Source: an uncultured Verrucomicrobiota bacterium (lineage in GTDB: Bacteria > Verrucomicrobiota > Verrucomicrobiia > Limisphaerales > UBA9464). Taken from it: a DNA stretch of 64,000 bases. Positions 20,199 through 27,511 of this stretch are shown piece by piece. The notes below the pieces were generated by a model. The model was not told where the DNA came from. It searched no databases and saw only the letters and a program-made list of their open reading frames with translations. The stretch is taken from NCBI GenBank assembly GCA_903939515.1, contig CAJAHH010000076.1, forward strand, positions 1 to 64,000. The letters are read 5' to 3'. Position 1 is the first letter of the stretch. Every line of letters begins with the position of its first letter. The translations under genes were made by a program, and so were the position numbers.

Positions 20199-20316
20199 AA
20201 AGTGAAGGATCATTCGATAGAGCACCAGTTCCCAACAGTCAACCAGTCAAACCCAAATAAAGTGACAGGTTCAATATTTTTGACTTACTGGGGTCGCGGT
20301 GTCTAGATTTCGAGAT

Positions 20317-21294
20317 ATGAGGCTGGCGCGGATCAAAGGGGAGTGTTCTGAGGGTGCTGTGTACCATTGCATTTCCAGGACTGTGGGCGGGCAGATGCTA
20401 CTGGATGATCTCTGCAAGGCTCGGTTGGTGGATTTGTTAATGCCGCTGGCACGGTTCTGCGGGTTGGAGGTGATCACTTATTGCATGATGGGGAATCACT
20501 TCCATCTGCTGCTGCGGGTTCCAGTGCCTGTGGCGTTGAGTGATGAGGAACTGTTCCGTAGGGCTGAGGGTTTTTACGGGTCGCAGGGGGTTTTGGTGGT
20601 CCAAGCTCGGGATGCGATGATGAGGCCAGGCAAGGGCAAGATGCCGGGCTACATCCGCCAGACGCTTCTAGGGCGAATGGGCGATGTGTCGGTGTTTATG
20701 AAGGAATTCAAACAGCGTTTCAGTCGCTGGTACAATCGACGGACGGAACGCTTTGGTACTCTTTGGGCCGAGCGCTTCAAAAGTGTGCTGGTGGAGGACT
20801 CTCTTGGGGCTTTGCGCACGGTCGCCGCTTACATTGATCTCAACCCAGTGAGGGCAGGTTTGGTGGGTGATCCTAAAGATTATCGATTCTGCGGCTACTC
20901 GGCGGCACTGGTGGGGCAAAGGGATTTGCAAAGAGGAATTATGGGGATCTTCTCGAAGCTGAATTGGGGGCAAGCGGCGGCTCGTTATCGGGAATCCATG
21001 TTTGTTCAGGCAGGGGTTGGTGGGCATAGCTCAAAGCGGGAATTGGATCGGGAAACCATTCGTGCAGTGCTCTTGCAGGGAGGAAAGTTGAGCGAGGCTG
21101 AAATTCTGCGGCTGAGGGTTCGACATTTGACGGATGGGGTGGCGTTGGGCTCTCGCAAGTTTGTGGATGCAGTTTTCTTCCGGTACCGTCCGTTCTTCGG
21201 GCCCAAACGCCGAGACGGGGCGCGTCCTATCCGAGGCACACCTTGGTCAGACCTGTCGACACTGCGAGATTTGCGGGTCGATGCGCTTGGATGA
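20317..21294 (+). CDS. REP-associated tyrosine transposase (RAYT, Y1/HUH family)
   Basis: The 325-residue product has an N-terminal Y1 transposase domain. GAVYHCISRTVGGQMLL opens it, the HUH metal site is in MMGNHFHLLLR, and FKQRFSRWYNRR carries the candidate catalytic tyrosine. RFGTLWAERFKSVLVED and AYIDLNPVRAGLV are standard RAYT words. RAYTs nick REP hairpins and are normally single-copy, domesticated genes. ATG at 20317 is preferred to GTG at 20299, because homologues begin with a basic MRxARIK-type sequence. The C-terminal 100 residues look like an added helix-turn-helix region. Confidence 0.9.
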   Translation: MRLARIKGECSEGAVYHCISRTVGGQMLLDDLCKARLVDLLMPLARFCGLEVITYCMMGNHFHLLLRVPVPVALSDEELFRRAEGFYGSQGVLVVQARDAMMRPGKGKMPGYIRQTLLGRMGDVSVFMKEFKQRFSRWYNRRTERFGTLWAERFKSVLVEDSLGALRTVAAYIDLNPVRAGLVGDPKDYRFCGYSAALVGQRDLQRGIMGIFSKLNWGQAAARYRESMFVQAGVGGHSSKRELDRETIRAVLLQGGKLSEAEILRLRVRHLTDGVALGSRKFVDAVFFRYRPFFGPKRRDGARPIRGTPWSDLSTLRDLRVDALG

Positions 21295-21354
21295 GTTTGT
21301 TTATGAATTGCTGATGGGCACTTGCTGCTGAGATTGAGGACCTCTGCAGCAATC

Positions 21355-21386
21355 GGATTGGCACCGGTGGTCCCGTAAATGCCAAT
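21355..21386. repeat. Inverted repeat after the RAYT gene
   Basis: GATTGGCA and TGCCAATC form a perfect 8-bp stem around a 16-base loop that itself contains CACCGGTG. It lies 60 bp after the transposase stop and lacks a T run. It could be a REP-type site or a transcription end. Confidence 0.4.
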
Positions 21387-21449
21387 CAGGCTTGGCGTGA
21401 GAATCCTCTGGCAATGGGTTGATCGGGTGCCGTCTCCTGTCCGAAGACA

Positions 21450-22193
21450 ATGGCAATGCGTACAAGACGGGTGTTGTTGGTAGATTCGGTGATTTGGCCC
21501 CCGGGCTTGGAGCCGGATCCCCGTCGCGATGTCTGCGGTTGGTTCACCCGGTGGACTCCCAGATCCATCCCGGTGGAGTGGTGCAGGGTCGGTGTCGAAT
21601 CGGATATCAACCCGTTGTATTCACCGGCGGAATGGGATGGGGTCATTCTCAGTGGTTCGCCCCGAGATGCTTGGAATGACGACCCGGTCAACGTGCAGTT
21701 GGGCGAGTGGATCCTTCGATGCCGGGATGCCGGGGTGCCGGTCCTTGGGGTGTGCTATGGTCACCAACTCATGGCCCGAGTTTTGGGAGCGACGGTGGAG
21801 CCGCACCCGCAAGGCCTGGAGTTGGGAAATACTCCGGTGACGCTCACTGCTGCCGGCCGGATGTCGAAGTTGTTTGATGGGATTCCAGACAGCTTTGACG
21901 TGCTGTCGAGCCATTCCGATGTGGCGTCCGACATTCCAATCGGGGTGACCCATACGGTGGCCGGCACCTTTGCGCCGATTCAGGGAATTCAAGACTCCAC
22001 GCAACTGCTCCATGGGGTCCAGTTCCATCCAGAGACGGATCCTGAGGTGCTTCGCTCAATTTGGAATCCACGACGCGAGTTGTGGCGCCCGCGTGTCCGT
22101 TTTAATTTGGACGAGGTGTTGGACAACTTGCAACCGACACCCTGGGGTCCGCAAATTTTGCACAATTTTCTGCACCATTTCGTTCAGGGATGA
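21450..22193 (+). CDS. Class I glutamine amidotransferase-like hydrolase
   Basis: The 247-residue protein is a stand-alone class I GATase. The nucleophile elbow is GVCYGHQLMA with the catalytic Cys near residue 104, and the His-Glu pair lies in QFHPETD near 190. GVILSGSPRDAWND supplies the oxyanion part. Beside a glutamine-synthetase-like ligase and two dehydrogenases, the natural role would be hydrolysis of a gamma-glutamyl amide, as done by PuuD-type enzymes. It could also be a GMP-synthase-like amidotransferase. It is the first of four co-directional genes with gaps of 28-49 bp. The alternative start is ATG at 21456. Confidence 0.85.
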   Translation: MAMRTRRVLLVDSVIWPPGLEPDPRRDVCGWFTRWTPRSIPVEWCRVGVESDINPLYSPAEWDGVILSGSPRDAWNDDPVNVQLGEWILRCRDAGVPVLGVCYGHQLMARVLGATVEPHPQGLELGNTPVTLTAAGRMSKLFDGIPDSFDVLSSHSDVASDIPIGVTHTVAGTFAPIQGIQDSTQLLHGVQFHPETDPEVLRSIWNPRRELWRPRVRFNLDEVLDNLQPTPWGPQILHNFLHHFVQG

Positions 22194-22242
22194 CCCTTGG
22201 CCCAATGACCTGATTGCAACAATCTCTTTCGATCTAAACAAC

Positions 22243-23397
22243 ATGAGCCTGACTGCCTTTTCTTTCCCAACGCGAACTCTCTATGGCGCTGGCGCGCTGG
22301 CTGAATTGCCGGCCGCCCTAGTTAAACTTGGTGTGCACCGTCCGCTCGTGGTCACCGATGGGGGACTGGTGAAGACCGATGCATTCGCACAACTCGCTGC
22401 GGTACTCGGTGCCGACGATCAAGGTAAGAAGTGGTTCGTCTTTGATGGGGTGCATCCCAATCCGGTTGAGGAAGATGTGCGCCAGGCGGCCGCCGCGCTG
22501 AGGGATCATCAGTGCGACGGGGTGATCGCTATTGGCGGTGGAAGCCCTTTGGATGCCGGTAAGGCCGCGCGTCTGTTGGCACTTCGCCCCGGCTACGATC
22601 TTTCGAAGTTCTACGACGAGTCCGACTGGAGTGGCCTGCTGCCGCTGGTGGCCATCCCCACCACCGCGGGCACTGGTAGTGAGGTGGGTCGCAGCTCGGT
22701 GATCACCCTCGATGCCACCCATCGCAAGGCGGTGCTCTTCAATCCCGAAATGTTGGCCAAACTGGTGATTCTAGATCCCGCGCTGACGGTGGGCTTGCCG
22801 CCTCACCTGACCGCTGCGACCGGGGCCGATGCGTTGACGCACTGCATCGAAAGCTTCACCTGTCCGTCTTTCCACCCGATGTGCGATGGCATTGCTCTCG
22901 AGGGGGTTCGGTTGATCTTTGAAGCGCTTCCCAAGGCGTATCGCGATGGCAAGGACCTGGAAGCCCGCGGCCATATGCTCGTGGCGGCAGCCATGGGCGC
23001 TGTGGCTTTTCAGAAGGATCTGGGAGTGGTCCACTCATTGGCTCACCCGCTGTCTTCCATTTGCGGAATGCACCATGGATTGGCCAATGCCCTTTGCCTG
23101 GTGGCCAGCCTGCGATTCTGTAGTGCGCGCCGTCCGGGAATATACCGACGTGTAGGACAGGCCGCTGGGCTGGAGGTAGTCAAACTCTCCGACGTTCAAG
23201 CAGACCAAGTTACGATTGCGTTCGTGGAGTCCTTCTTGGCGGGGTTGGGCTTGAATAAGAAGCTCTCGCAGCACGGGGTGCGCCCCGAGCATCTCGACGC
23301 ACTGGTGGCCCAGGCCTGGGAAGACCCCTGCCACCGGACCAATGCCGTACCAGTCACCATCGAAGACTTGCGCGCTCTGTACCTCGAAGTCCTCTGA
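22243..23397 (+). CDS. Iron-containing alcohol dehydrogenase
   Basis: The 384-residue protein is a group III Fe-alcohol dehydrogenase. IGGGSPLDAGKAARLLAL binds the nucleotide, and PTTAGTGSEVGRSSVI is the classic family motif. Metal ligands are expected in DALTHCIESF and in the His-rich HSLAHPLSSICGMHHGLANAL-like block. ATG at 22243 gives the normal length; the frame stays open upstream but is out of family there. It lies between the amidotransferase and an aldehyde dehydrogenase and may oxidise a gamma-glutamylated amino alcohol to the aldehyde. A general alcohol or 4-hydroxybutyrate dehydrogenase is the alternative. Confidence 0.92.
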   Translation: MSLTAFSFPTRTLYGAGALAELPAALVKLGVHRPLVVTDGGLVKTDAFAQLAAVLGADDQGKKWFVFDGVHPNPVEEDVRQAAAALRDHQCDGVIAIGGGSPLDAGKAARLLALRPGYDLSKFYDESDWSGLLPLVAIPTTAGTGSEVGRSSVITLDATHRKAVLFNPEMLAKLVILDPALTVGLPPHLTAATGADALTHCIESFTCPSFHPMCDGIALEGVRLIFEALPKAYRDGKDLEARGHMLVAAAMGAVAFQKDLGVVHSLAHPLSSICGMHHGLANALCLVASLRFCSARRPGIYRRVGQAAGLEVVKLSDVQADQVTIAFVESFLAGLGLNKKLSQHGVRPEHLDALVAQAWEDPCHRTNAVPVTIEDLRALYLEVL

Positions 23398-23446
23398 CAA
23401 ACGACGCTCCATACCTGCTTCCCCAATCCTTTTCCCATCTCCTCCC

Positions 23447-24874
23447 ATGATTCCTCACCAATTGTTTCTGGACGGCCGCTACATCGGGGTCGACGGCACT
23501 CCGAAGACGCGACTGATTAATCCTGCCACGGCCGAAGTGTTCGCAGAAATCGATGCCGCCACGGCGAGGGAAGTCGAGTATGCCGCTGCCTCCGCCAACT
23601 TCGCTTTCGAGTTTGGTTGGCGCGATCTGGCCCCGGGCAAGCGAGCCTCGGTGCTTTTTAAGATCGCCGCTGTGATCCGAGAAAATGCCGAGGAGTTGGC
23701 TCGGCTAGAGGTTCTGCAGGTGGGCAAGCCACTGGCCGATGCCCGTGATGAAGTCGCTCTGGGGGCGCGGGTTTTTGAATATTACGCGGGAGGCATCAGC
23801 CGGTTCTACGGTCAGACTATTCCGGTCGCCCGCGGAGGGCTCGATTTCACTCTGCGCCAACCGCTGGGAGTCATCTCGGCCATCGTGCCGTGGAATTTCC
23901 CCTTTGCCATCGCCTGTTGGAAGGTGGCTCCGGCGCTGGCCGCCGGGAATGCCGTGTTGCTGAAGCCAGCCTCCATTTCGCCGCTCACCGCGCTGAAATT
24001 GGGAGAACTGGCCCACGCGGCCGGGCTGCCGGCGGGCGTTCTGCAGGTGATCACGGGTCCTGGTGGAACCTTGGGTGACGCGCTGGTCACCCACCCGCTG
24101 GTGCGTAAGGTGTCCTTCACCGGTTCTACCGAGGTGGGGCGCCGGATCATGGAGCTAGCCGCGCGGAACTTGACTCGGATCTCGCTCGAATTGGGTGGCA
24201 AGTCTCCCAACATCATCTTCGCTGATGCCGACTGGGAGAAGGCGGCCGATGCCGCGCCGATGTCCGTCTTCGCTAACACAGGCCAAGACTGCTGCGCCCG
24301 GAGCCGTGTTTATGTCGAACGCCCGGTGTACGAGAAATTCGTGGAACGATTCGCGGCGGCCACCCGCAAGCTCATCGTGGGCGATCCTTTGAATGAGGCA
24401 ACTCAACTGGGCCCTTTGGTCTCCTCCGCGCAGCGGCAGGTGGTCGAAGATTATCTGGCAGACGCACGACGGTGCGGCAGCACGGTGGTGTGCGGGGGAG
24501 GGCGCTTGCCCTCGGCTGGCTTCTATCTGGAGCCCACGATCCTCACGGGCGTCGCTCCCGAACACCGCTGCTGGCGCGAGGAGATTTTCGGCCCGGTTGC
24601 GGCGGTGGTTCCGTTTGATGACGAGGCGGCGATGCTGATCGATGTGAACGCATCGCCCTATGGCCTGAGCGGCTCGGTCTGGACGAACAACCTCTCACGC
24701 GCGTTTCGGGTGACCCGAGCGGTCCAAAGTGGCGTGCTCTCTATCAACAGTCACAGCAGCGTTCATGTGGAGGCTCCGTTCGGAGGCTTCAAGCAGAGCG
24801 GGCTGGGCCGCGACCTCGGCATGGCTGCGATGGAAGGCTACTCAGAGGTTAAGAACGTGTACGTGGCCGAATAA
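23447..24874 (+). CDS. NAD(P)-dependent aldehyde dehydrogenase
   Basis: The 475-residue protein is a typical ALDH. The nucleotide site includes IVPWNFPFAIACWKVAPALA and SFTGSTEVG. The general base Glu is in LELGGKSPNIIF, and the catalytic Cys in NTGQDCCARSRV (about 278-279). PFGGFKQSGLGRDLG near the C-terminus is typical of the betaine/aminobutyraldehyde group. It starts with ATG at 23447, 49 bp after the alcohol dehydrogenase. In context it would oxidise the aldehyde made by that enzyme to the acid, as PuuC does for gamma-glutamyl-aminobutyraldehyde. Confidence 0.93.
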   Translation: MIPHQLFLDGRYIGVDGTPKTRLINPATAEVFAEIDAATAREVEYAAASANFAFEFGWRDLAPGKRASVLFKIAAVIRENAEELARLEVLQVGKPLADARDEVALGARVFEYYAGGISRFYGQTIPVARGGLDFTLRQPLGVISAIVPWNFPFAIACWKVAPALAAGNAVLLKPASISPLTALKLGELAHAAGLPAGVLQVITGPGGTLGDALVTHPLVRKVSFTGSTEVGRRIMELAARNLTRISLELGGKSPNIIFADADWEKAADAAPMSVFANTGQDCCARSRVYVERPVYEKFVERFAAATRKLIVGDPLNEATQLGPLVSSAQRQVVEDYLADARRCGSTVVCGGGRLPSAGFYLEPTILTGVAPEHRCWREEIFGPVAAVVPFDDEAAMLIDVNASPYGLSGSVWTNNLSRAFRVTRAVQSGVLSINSHSSVHVEAPFGGFKQSGLGRDLGMAAMEGYSEVKNVYVAE

Positions 24875-24902
24875 CTCGCAGCACTTCCCACTCATATTCC
24901 TA

Positions 24903-26249
24903 ATGACTCTCCAAGAGCTCAAGGCCCAGGTTAAATCGGGCGCCGTCGACACGGTCCTCGTGGCCATCCCCGATCCGTTTGGCCGACTCGTGGGCAAGCG
25001 TTTCCATGCAGGCCATTTTCTGGAGTCGGTGGTGTCCCACGGAACCCATGGCTGCAGCTACTTGCTCACGGTCAACCTCGACATGGATCCGTTGGATGGG
25101 TTTGCCGTCGCCAATTGGGATTCGGGTTTCGGTGATTTTGAGATGCTGCCCGATACGGCCACGTTCCGGCTGATGCCCTGGCTTCCCGGTTCGGCGTTGG
25201 TCCTTTGCGACTTCCGGCACGCCAACGGGTCGCCCGTGGCTGAAGCCCCGCGCTCGGTGTTGCGCCGCCAGTTGGATCGGCTCAAGGAACGCGGCCTCAC
25301 CTGCTTCTGCGCCAGCGAGTTGGAGTTTTATCTCTATGAGCAGACTTACGGTGCTGCCTTCGAAGCCGGTTATCGGAACCTCAAACCTTCGAGCGATTAC
25401 CGCATCGACTACCACTTGATGCAGCCCGGCCGCGATGAACCGCTGATGCGGGCCATCCGCAACGGACTCACGGCCGCGGGTGTGCCGATCGAGAGTAGCA
25501 AGGGCGAGTGGAGCCGGGGCCAGCATGAGATTAATTTCACCTACGGCGAGGCCATGGAGATGGCCGATCGACATGTCGTCTTCAAGCAGGGGGTCAAAGA
25601 GATCGCCGGACAGCACGGCAAGTCGGTGAGCTTTATGGCTAAGGTCGCACCGACCGAGGCGGGGAACTCCTGCCATATTCACATGAGCCTGTGGAAGGCC
25701 GGCCGCAACTTGTTCTGGGATCCGAAGGCCAAGACGGGTTCCACACTGTTCCGGCAATTTTTGGGCGGGTTGCTGAAATATTCTCCTGAGTTGTGCCTGT
25801 TCTACGGTCCGACGATCAACAGCTACAAACGCTATCAGGCCGGGAGTTGGGCTCCGACCCGCATGGCTTGGGCCCAGGACAACCGGACCACCGGGTTCCG
25901 CGTGGTGGGGCAGGGTAATGGTTACCGCCCGGAGAACCGCATGCCCGGGGCCGATGCCAATCCATACCTGGCTTTTGCGGCCATGATCGCGGCCGGTTTG
26001 GCGGGCATCGATGAGGGGCTCGACTGCGGTGAGCCGTATTCCGGCAATGCCTATATCGATCCGAACTTGCCGCGTCTGCCCTCAAGTCTAATCGCGGCAG
26101 CCGACCTCTTCAACGGGTCGCGGTTGGCCCGCGAGGCCTTCGGCGACGGGGTTGTCGACTTTTCAGTGCACCACGCCCGCCTTGAACATCAGGCTTTTAG
26201 CAACGCGGTGACCGACTGGGAAAAGCAGCGCTACTTCGAGCAAATCTGA
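24903..26249 (+). CDS. Glutamine-synthetase-like gamma-glutamylamine ligase
   Basis: The 448-residue protein has the GS fold. ASELEFYLYE holds the metal Glu ligands, KVAPTEAGNSCHIHMSLW the His region, and NSYKRYQAGSWAPTRMAW with DNRTTGFRV the nucleotide and substrate loop. GADANPYLAFAAMIAAGLAG closes the barrel. It lacks a canonical adenylylation site and looks like the GS-like ligases (PuuA, GlnA3/GlnA4, IpuC) that join glutamate to amines. The alcohol and aldehyde dehydrogenases beside it suggest an amino alcohol such as ethanolamine as substrate. True glutamine synthesis is less likely. It ends the four-gene set, 28 bp after the ALDH gene. Confidence 0.87.
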   Translation: MTLQELKAQVKSGAVDTVLVAIPDPFGRLVGKRFHAGHFLESVVSHGTHGCSYLLTVNLDMDPLDGFAVANWDSGFGDFEMLPDTATFRLMPWLPGSALVLCDFRHANGSPVAEAPRSVLRRQLDRLKERGLTCFCASELEFYLYEQTYGAAFEAGYRNLKPSSDYRIDYHLMQPGRDEPLMRAIRNGLTAAGVPIESSKGEWSRGQHEINFTYGEAMEMADRHVVFKQGVKEIAGQHGKSVSFMAKVAPTEAGNSCHIHMSLWKAGRNLFWDPKAKTGSTLFRQFLGGLLKYSPELCLFYGPTINSYKRYQAGSWAPTRMAWAQDNRTTGFRVVGQGNGYRPENRMPGADANPYLAFAAMIAAGLAGIDEGLDCGEPYSGNAYIDPNLPRLPSSLIAAADLFNGSRLAREAFGDGVVDFSVHHARLEHQAFSNAVTDWEKQRYFEQI

Positions 26250-26282
26250 GTTTCAGATCAGCTCCTTAGACGGGCTGAAAAC

Positions 26283-27179
26283 TCAGTCTTTTTTGAGGCT
26301 CACCTTCAGGCCCGCATTGTCGGGCTTGAGGATGTGGACGGCGGCCTTGGGCATTTTTCGCTGCATGGCCGCTGCGATGGCTTCGGGGTTGTCCAAGGCC
26401 AAGCACATCAAGGTGGAGCCGCTGCCGCTGAGCCAGCCACCGATGGCTCCCGCTTTCACGCCGGCCGCCAGAATGGCGTCCATGCCTGGAATGAGCGCCG
26501 CCCGATAGGGTTGGTGAATGCGGTCATCGAAGCAGCCTCGGAGGTTCTCGAGTCGGCCCGTGGCGAATGCGGCGGTGACCAGAGAGGCACGGTTGAGGAT
26601 GTGAATCGTGTCGGCCTTGGAAAAGGTCTGCGGGACCCGCTTCCGGGCCTCCGGCGTGCTGACCTCGAAGTGCGGAATCAGGGTCACCAAACGGATCCGA
26701 CTCGGGAGTGGTACCCGAATGCATCGGACCTCAGAACCGACAAATCCCGCGGCCGTGAATCCGCCAAAGACCGCCGGAGCCGCGTTGTCGGGGTGGCCTT
26801 CCAGAGCGGCCACGACTTCTAGCAATCCTTGTCGGTCCAGCGGGCTGCCTGCCAGAGCGTTGAGTCCGGCCACGCAGCCGAGTCGGGCGGTGACGCTAGA
26901 TCCGAGCCCCCGCGCGATCGGCACGTCGCCGGCCAAGTGAAGATCCACCCCAAAGCGTTGGGCGCGAGTCTTTTTGAAGAACGCCGTTGCAGCCTCCTCC
27001 AGCATGGCAAGGGCTCCGGCCCGGGCATCCTCGGCGATGGGAGAAGTAATCTCGACACGTCGGTCGTCCCGGCGGCGGACTGTGGCCCGGTTGTAGAGCG
27101 CGACGGCCAGTCCCAGAGTATCGAAGCCCGAGCCCAAATTGGCGGTCGTCCCCGGAATGCGCACGGTGGCGGATGTCAT
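26283..27179 (-). CDS. thrB: Homoserine kinase ThrB (GHMP family)
   Basis: The 298-residue enzyme phosphorylates homoserine in threonine synthesis. It has the GHMP-kinase ATP loop PIARGLGSSVTARLG (about 90-104). The N-terminal motif is VRIPGTTANLGSGFDTLGLA and the C-terminal glycine motif GGWLSGSGSTLMCLA. Substrate words such as EGHPDNAAPAVFGGF are specific for ThrB. It is convergent with the GS-like ligase, with 33 bp between the stops. No thrC or hom gene is in view. Confidence 0.95.
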   Translation of the reverse strand: MTSATVRIPGTTANLGSGFDTLGLAVALYNRATVRRRDDRRVEITSPIAEDARAGALAMLEEAATAFFKKTRAQRFGVDLHLAGDVPIARGLGSSVTARLGCVAGLNALAGSPLDRQGLLEVVAALEGHPDNAAPAVFGGFTAAGFVGSEVRCIRVPLPSRIRLVTLIPHFEVSTPEARKRVPQTFSKADTIHILNRASLVTAAFATGRLENLRGCFDDRIHQPYRAALIPGMDAILAAGVKAGAIGGWLSGSGSTLMCLALDNPEAIAAAMQRKMPKAAVHILKPDNAGLKVSLKKD

Positions 27180-27335
27180 TTGGGGGATGAAACGGTAAAA
27201 CCGGACTCGATCTCAATGGATTACAGCAGAGGGAAAATCGCCAGACGACTGGAACAGGATCGGGATGGCCCCGACGCCTTCGCTACCAGAGCGCCTGATT
27301 TTTCATTCCGAGTATTTTTTTGGAGTAGGGCTCAG

Positions 27336-27511
27336 CCGGAACGATTCCATTGGATCGGTCGTGCCGGCTGCGTCTTCTTCCGCAAGAGTATCGTGGTTCG
27401 CTCGTTACGGGCCTCAATCGCAAGCCTCAGTGCGGCCCGCGCCTCGTTCTCGCCTCGTCTTGCGAAAGAATCCGCGGCGCGGTCCCTTTCTTCCCAACCG
27501 AATCGTTCCGG
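27336..27511 (+). mobile_element. 176-bp MITE-like element, copy A
   Basis: It is bounded by perfect inverted repeats CCGGAACGATTC (27336-27347) and GAATCGTTCCGG (27500-27511). With flanking AG and CT the match extends to 14 bp. The interior aligns without a net length change to the reverse complement of 59241-59416 and is roughly three quarters identical by eye; GTTGGATCGGTCGTG-like and GTTCGCTCGTT words are shared. It has no transposase or credible gene. Its right end is 15 bp before the ATG at 27527, so it supplies the leader or promoter of that gene. Confidence 0.8.

Follow-up and report, generated by a model that had tools for sequence, protein, structure and literature searches.

The DNA analysed here (the window) comprises the first 64,000 nucleotides of contig CAJAHH010000076.1 (assembly GCA_903939515.1), from an uncultured Verrucomicrobiota bacterium whose 4.7 Mb genome (G000) is about 96% complete. 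Four genes follow one another on the forward strand: a class I glutamine-amidotransferase-fold protein (GATase; 21450-22193, 247 amino acids, PF00117 at 3.3e-23), an iron-containing alcohol dehydrogenase (Fe-ADH; 22243-23397, 384 amino acids, PF00465 at 6.1e-49), an aldehyde dehydrogenase (ALDH; 23447-24874, 475 amino acids, PF00171 at 2.1e-170) and a glutamine-synthetase-like gamma-glutamyl ligase (24903-26249, 448 amino acids, PF00120 at 1.5e-97). A longer mechanical open reading frame starting at 21970 was rejected as the Fe-ADH gene. The preliminary description of this locus had reported four such families adjacent on one strand with gaps of 28-49 bp; the open reading frames, the Pfam matches and the gaps (49 bp between GATase and Fe-ADH, 49 bp between Fe-ADH and ALDH, 28 bp between ALDH and ligase) agree with it. 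With a probability of about 0.7, judged from sequence, the four genes constitute an operon that breaks down ethanolamine or, with lower likelihood, a closely similar compound, and represent the known gamma-glutamylethanolamide route as a mosaic variant. The ligase would perform the first step, the Fe-ADH and the ALDH are proposed to be the gamma-glutamylethanolamide and gamma-glutamyl-aldehyde dehydrogenases, and the GATase would act last, as a gamma-glutamyl-amino-acid hydrolase.

Gene order was compared in 80 fetched loci and later in further loci from a sample of 384 genomes of the class. Among the 80 loci, the order GATase-ADH-ALDH-ligase is retained in the seven close relatives that reach that far (L001-L004, L006, L008 and L009) and in the more distant L023 and L048; the full order was also found in L107, L178, L179 and L181, whereas L180 and L023 are probably one and the same contig. 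Genome G246 has the genes divided between two contigs, as GATase-ADH-permease and ALDH-ligase (L175, L176), L182 has ADH-ALDH-ligase without the GATase, and in L183 and L184 a permease is placed between ADH and ALDH. L177 carries an operon of the published kind, FGase-ligase-ALDH-ADH, where FGase stands for the PF05013 hydrolase. In each of the four genes, codon differences to L006, L008 and L009 concentrate at the third position (28/7/182 at the three positions for the ligase against L006), and by codon comparison the four genes are under purifying selection. Directly upstream of the GATase of L048 there is an Asparaginase_2-family gene (L048:4580-5614). The titles of L006, L014, L016, L025, L043 and L044 name Akkermansia muciniphila or Klebsiella pneumoniae; the ligases of these records nest among Pedosphaera-type Verrucomicrobiota, and the labels look wrong.

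The matches of the ligase to sequences in the Protein Data Bank (PDB) are led by 11zs (465 bits) and 5dm3 (412 bits), the next reaching 190 bits. Its AlphaFold model (pLDDT 84.8) has 5dm3 as the best fold match (Z 48.0, rmsd 1.7, 375 aligned residues), with 11zs at Z 46.9 and the other glutamine synthetases listed at 43.8 or below. According to its title, 5dm3 is Csal_0679 of Chromohalobacter salexigens, by locus tag the neighbour of Csal_0678, which a passage of PMC10132767 describes as a homologue of the ethanolamine-binding TRAP protein EtoX. In the alignment, the metal, glutamate and ATP residues of the ligase are all retained. The preliminary description had proposed a comparison of the pocket with GlnA4-type and PuuA enzymes, and this comparison shows that the ammonium-site residues Y179 and E327 of glutamine synthetase I are replaced by Asp169 and Trp316, a pair that differs from GlnA and also from PuuA (Val and Tyr); IpuC, the ligase of an isopropylamine cluster of P. 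aurescens TC1, has Thr and Trp. In the passages of PMC6529630 on GlnA4, the Y179 site is taken by V189 in one model and by D186 in the other, and the E327 site by F331. All 92 members of the ligase clade have Asp at the Y179 position. The flap residue (316 in the window ligase) splits the same clade into 77 Trp carriers, 51 of the verrucomicrobial group and 26 others, and 15 Phe carriers, 11 of the proteobacterial group and 4 actinobacterial; this split may mark amine specificity. The window ligase is 46-51% identical to the first ten named plasmid ligases, 39% to IpuC, 27% to GlnA and 26.7% to PuuA. In the ligase tree, which omits the near-identical L001-L005 and from whose alignment L010 (a match of 420 amino acids) was dropped, the branches of GlnA, PuuA, IpuC and one Rhodococcus row are long, which leaves the deep branching uncertain. 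By family, fold match and pocket, the window ligase is predicted to be of the ethanolamine gamma-glutamylase kind.

Related ligases were found in 167 plasmid records at E 1e-40 and in 59 at 1e-60; 17 records were examined, three of them unannotated. FGase-type operons are carried by five: the order is FGase-TRAP-ligase-ALDH-FeADH in Paracoccus and Ruegeria, FGase-permease-ligase-ALDH-FeADH in Sinorhizobium meliloti and FGase-ligase-ALDH-FeADH-glyA-serine ammonia-lyase in Salipiger, and in Aminobacter the set of FGase, ligase, ALDH and Fe-ADH adjoins beta-hydroxyaspartate genes. A TRAP or amino-acid permease is present in three of the five. The glyA and serine ammonia-lyase genes of Salipiger and the beta-hydroxyaspartate genes of Aminobacter would fit glycine as the product. 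In Thermomicrobium the ligase is followed by a short-chain dehydrogenase (SDR) and a gene called eat, so that ligases 46-50% identical to that of the window have transport genes of the ethanolamine type among their neighbours. Allomeiothermus has a permease, an aminotransferase, the ligase, an SDR and an ALDH. Other or incomplete gene sets surround the ligase in Robbsia, Rhizobium CB3171, Rhodococcus opacus, Streptomyces and Paenarthrobacter YJN-5, which suggests that the wider ligase family serves more than one purpose. On a plasmid of Arthrobacter sp. U41, a ligase, a C26-type hydrolase, an ALDH and an SDR form one run (L092:5962-10263) near a choline kinase-like gene, which pairs hydrolase and dehydrogenase in yet another way, and a tandem pair of genes resembling glutamine synthetase lies among SDR genes on the R. 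opacus plasmid (L103:4682-7362).

The metal-ligand columns of the Fe-ADH (Asp/His/His/His) are conserved in 26 of 26 aligned proteins. This enzyme is 42-44% identical (275-299 bits) to the ADHs of the five FGase-type plasmid operons, and scores 197 bits against both YiaY and EutG of Escherichia coli, 179 bits against FucO, and 169 and 129 bits against two Fe-ADH paralogues from its own genome; these paralogues were compared by BLAST only, and three E. coli proteins alone form the outgroup of the ADH tree. The ALDH has the cysteine of the GQxC motif (C282), E248 and N150, and shares about 50% identity with the ALDHs of the TC1 IpuC plasmid cluster, of the Arthrobacter U41 cluster and of the Acidimicrobiia locus L056. 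By these similarities, the Fe-ADH is closer kin to the published-operon ADHs than to the other Fe-ADHs compared, while the ALDH is of another lineage.

The GATase is a stand-alone gene, and its catalytic triad C102/H193/E195 is complete and does not vary among 18 aligned proteins. When a profile of it is compared with the PDB, Arabidopsis gamma-glutamyl peptidase 1 heads the matches (6.9e-42 and 3.7e-40), with the second-ranked protein at 9.8e-24. The same peptidase is the best fold match of the model (pLDDT 92.2; Z 25.9, rmsd 2.6, 233 aligned residues), and four of its entries head the fold list (Z 25.2-25.9), with 1o1y (24.9) and 8khs (24.8) within about 1 Z of them. As gamma-glutamyl peptidase 1 is nearest by profile and by fold, it is plausible that the modelled GATase cleaves a gamma-glutamyl bond. 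A PF05013 hydrolase was found neither in the operon nor in the rest of its roughly 96% complete genome.

To examine co-occurrence, the 384-genome class sample was used, in which the ligase occurs in 28 genomes, the GATase in 6, an APC permease in 13 and PF05013 in 46, many of the latter being weak matches. All six GATase genomes, which represent six families, bear the ligase, and in five of them the two genes are adjacent (hypergeometric 9e-8, ignoring kinship); the permease falls within the 28 ligase-bearing genomes in 11 of its 13 (3e-12, again ignoring kinship), and PF05013 in 2, where 3.4 would be expected. No transporter gene is present among the operon neighbours examined. An intact APC permease is encoded in the same genome on another contig (L106:3155-4609, that is C125:17154-18608 of G000). 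Its orthologues in L013, L019 and L037, with which it shares 70-71% identity, sit between ADH and ALDH; identity to the permease of the S. meliloti operon is about 45%. An apparent stop inside the permease match was discounted, since it lies past the end of that frame; L106 has an open gene, and a shorter match has no stop. This unlinked permease is probably the uptake partner of the operon. In the Bacteroidota-type loci the usual order is permease-ligase-SDR-ALDH-GATase. These loci belong, with others, to a sister group whose ligases share the flap Trp. Of the 15-member family of permeases beside these ligases 11 were scanned, and nine of the 11 pass the TIGR00908 'ethanolamine permease' cut-off of 381.75, two falling just under it (L056 at 371.5 and L073 at 364.0).

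From the above we infer the substrate, the reactions, the co-transcription of the genes and the order of steps. The ligase would join ethanolamine to glutamate with ATP to give gamma-glutamylethanolamide, the Fe-ADH would oxidise this to the aldehyde, the ALDH would convert the aldehyde to gamma-glutamylglycine, and the GATase-fold hydrolase would split the latter into glutamate and glycine via a gamma-glutamyl-cysteine intermediate; glutamate would thus be regenerated and no free small aldehyde released. For an ethanolamine substrate hydrolysis would come last, because earlier hydrolysis would simply return the amine. The ligate, oxidise twice, hydrolyse scheme was already put forward in the preliminary description, and it matches the published ethanolamine route of C. 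salexigens, Streptomyces coelicolor GlnA4 and Phaeobacter. Its choice of glutamylated ethanolamine or another amino alcohol is borne out in so far as the ligase and the ADH are kin to published ethanolamine enzymes; the exact substrate is a prediction. As for the canonical ethanolamine ammonia-lyase (Eut) route, it was discarded, the genome giving no match to EutB in a search that detected the E. coli control.

All four proteins score far under the cut-offs of the NCBIfam equivalog models, so that no model names these enzymes outright. Several observations weigh against a plain ethanolamine operon of this composition. The candidate permease is far under every NCBIfam cut-off (best TIGR00907, 229.9 bits where 598.3 are needed). 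The flap residue of the window ligase is Trp, versus Phe in GlnA4 and in each ligase examined from the proteobacterial (11) and actinobacterial (4) groups. The ALDH is only 30-35% identical to those of the FGase-type operons, the two forming well-separated groups in the tree, and the window GATase shares only about 20% identity with its counterparts in the Bacteroidota clusters. In the class sample, the GATase is missing from 22 of the 28 ligase-bearing genomes, among them the one that belongs to the same genus, and 20 of these 22 lack an FGase as well. A PuuD-like Peptidase_C26 encoded elsewhere in the genome means that another hydrolase could do the job. Such a gene is present in 23 of the 28 genomes, our own included, a count confined to ligase-bearing genomes, which without a ligase-free comparison set shows nothing yet as to Peptidase_C26 being the hydrolase of the GATase-less relatives. 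For that role FGase was rejected, since only 2 of the 28 have one, adjoining the ligase in G470 and as a partial match on another contig in G497. Taking together the 20 genomes with neither enzyme and the frequency of Peptidase_C26, the hydrolase may differ between genomes or be redundant.

The same chemistry could serve another amino alcohol, with alaninol, isopropanolamine or a propanolamine yielding glutamate and alanine or beta-alanine, and the TC1 isopropylamine cluster gives this unlikely alternative its substance: the window ALDH is about 50% identical to the one encoded there, the flap residue of IpuC is Trp too, NF006562 is the best NCBIfam model for the window GATase as well as for one TC1 amidotransferase, each scoring below its cut-off, and passages of PMC6776027 name gamma-glutamyl-alaninol as an intermediate of the TC1 route. 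However, IpuC is 39% identical to the window ligase, compared with 46-50% for the ethanolamine-linked ones, and the pocket position that is Asp throughout the 92-member clade is Thr in IpuC; the flap Trp also occurs beside TIGR00908 ethanolamine permeases, and no P450 is found among the ten window proteins scanned, the search for P450 not having extended to the whole genome.

A Puu- or Pau-like polyamine route, in which the ligase would produce gamma-glutamylputrescine for an oxidising enzyme encoded elsewhere, is very improbable. PuuA, PuuC and PuuD do come from the same broad families, NF045547 gives the ligase 215 of 650 bits and a Peptidase_C26 is present in the genome, but PuuA is a distant relative and the Puu route offers no role for an alcohol dehydrogenase. 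The absence of a Puu-type oxidase, claimed in the preliminary description, holds for the operon, which has the ADH in its place, and a search of the genome, run without a positive control, gave no match to PuuB. The slightest chance is that of an ordinary or nitrogen-storage glutamine synthetase among unrelated fermentation or detoxification genes; the ligase keeps the PF00120 domain and the glutamate, ATP and metal residues of that family, but its Asp/Trp pair at Y179/E327 and its scores on TIGR00653 (231 of 429 bits) and TIGR03105 (251 of 470 bits) speak against a plain glutamine synthetase, and a four-gene order conserved across families, with several kin operons catabolic, speaks against unrelated neighbours.

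Returning to the ethanolamine operon, a wider proposal can be made tentatively, and we would expect it to fail somewhat more readily than to hold: the GATase may be a gamma-glutamylglycine (or gamma-glutamyl-alanine) hydrolase, recruited separately in Verrucomicrobiota to replace an FGase-type enzyme. The pathway would then be a module built on a single constant ligase, with exchangeable partners for oxidation (Fe-ADH or SDR, and either of two ALDH lineages) and for hydrolysis (FGase, GATase or C26), and the flap Trp/Phe would reflect a genuine difference in the amines accepted, perhaps an amino alcohol other than ethanolamine.

Around the four genes, a terminator-like hairpin with a T-run lies 3' of the ligase stop (26272-26294, forward strand), a consensus match only; 12 terminator-like sites were found compared with 7.5 (sd 3.6) in shuffles, which is near chance level and includes this hairpin. 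No promoter-like or terminator-like sites, which are themselves near chance level, were found in the three intergenic gaps, and an Rfam scan of 20200-27400 up to E 0.1 gave no match, thus no glycine riboswitch or other regulatory RNA. The downstream neighbour is a convergent homoserine kinase gene. Directly upstream of the GATase there is an IS200-like (Y1) transposase gene (20299-21294), which is found likewise in L001-L004, L006, L008 and L009 (partial in L004) and therefore appears to be an old resident and not a fresh insertion.

Ethanolamine, the head group of membrane lipids such as phosphatidylethanolamine, is a common source of nitrogen and carbon. If the proposed pathway operates, some Verrucomicrobiota would share its use by a microcompartment-free route, and annotators seeking EutBC or FGase would overlook the trait; the locus would also provide an annotation lead for stand-alone class I GATases and a Trp/Phe pocket difference within one ligase clade. 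In parts of the Phaeobacter paper (PMC10132767), ethanolamine use is tied to linked phosphorus, nitrogen and carbon cycling in the sea. The pathway itself is already known; what is new is that it occurs in this phylum with a GATase substituting for the FGase and with an ALDH from a different lineage. No description of the route in Verrucomicrobiota, or with a GATase, was found in the open-access literature, which is no proof of absence.

When compared with known systems, the operon shares with E. coli Puu the ligate-oxidise-hydrolyse logic and a GATase-clan hydrolase (PuuD, C26), but has an ADH where Puu has the oxidase PuuB, and a ligase with 26.7% identity to PuuA. With the TC1 isopropylamine (Ipu) clusters it has in common a ligase resembling glutamine synthetase, the ALDH (50%), an alcohol dehydrogenase (an SDR in TC1) and GATase-type amidotransferases as hydrolases; passages of PMC6776027 propose an amidotransferase as the TC1 hydrolase, thought to act before oxidation. 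Unlike the window, TC1 has a P450 system, Thr in the ligase pocket and no Fe-ADH in the stretch shown, and the ligases are 39% identical. The S. coelicolor glnA4 cluster (SCO1611-SCO1615) resembles it in the set of ligase, dehydrogenase, ALDH and hydrolase, in the Asp at the Y179 site (in one GlnA4 model) and in the loss of E327; it differs in the flap residue (Phe in GlnA4), in SCO1615, a formylglutamate-amidohydrolase-type protein, and in the regulator EpuRI, which adjoins glnA4, whereas the window operon has no regulator. Passages of PMC6529630 describe tests of GlnA4 in vitro and by deletion.

The systems of C. salexigens and Phaeobacter MED193 (ETAGA, GAADDH, GETADH, GGAH, EtoVWX) share with the window the kind of ligase, the kinship of the Fe-ADH, the ALDH family and adjacency on one strand. 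According to parts of PMC10132767, the Phaeobacter operon is induced by phosphorylethanolamine and is closely related to genes demonstrated to act as an ethanolamine route in C. salexigens and Agrobacterium tumefaciens. Here, in contrast, a class I GATase stands for PF05013, the ALDH lineage is a different one, there are no adjoining TRAP genes, and the order is hydrolase-ADH-ALDH-ligase. The published gamma-glutamylethanolamide set, as given in a passage of the review PMC9397018, consists of PF00120, PF00465, PF00171 and PF05013, the last being the family of the gamma-glutamylglycine amidohydrolase; since the window operon has the first three families and not the fourth, it is best regarded as a variant that would work like the published pathway, and not as a plain member of it.

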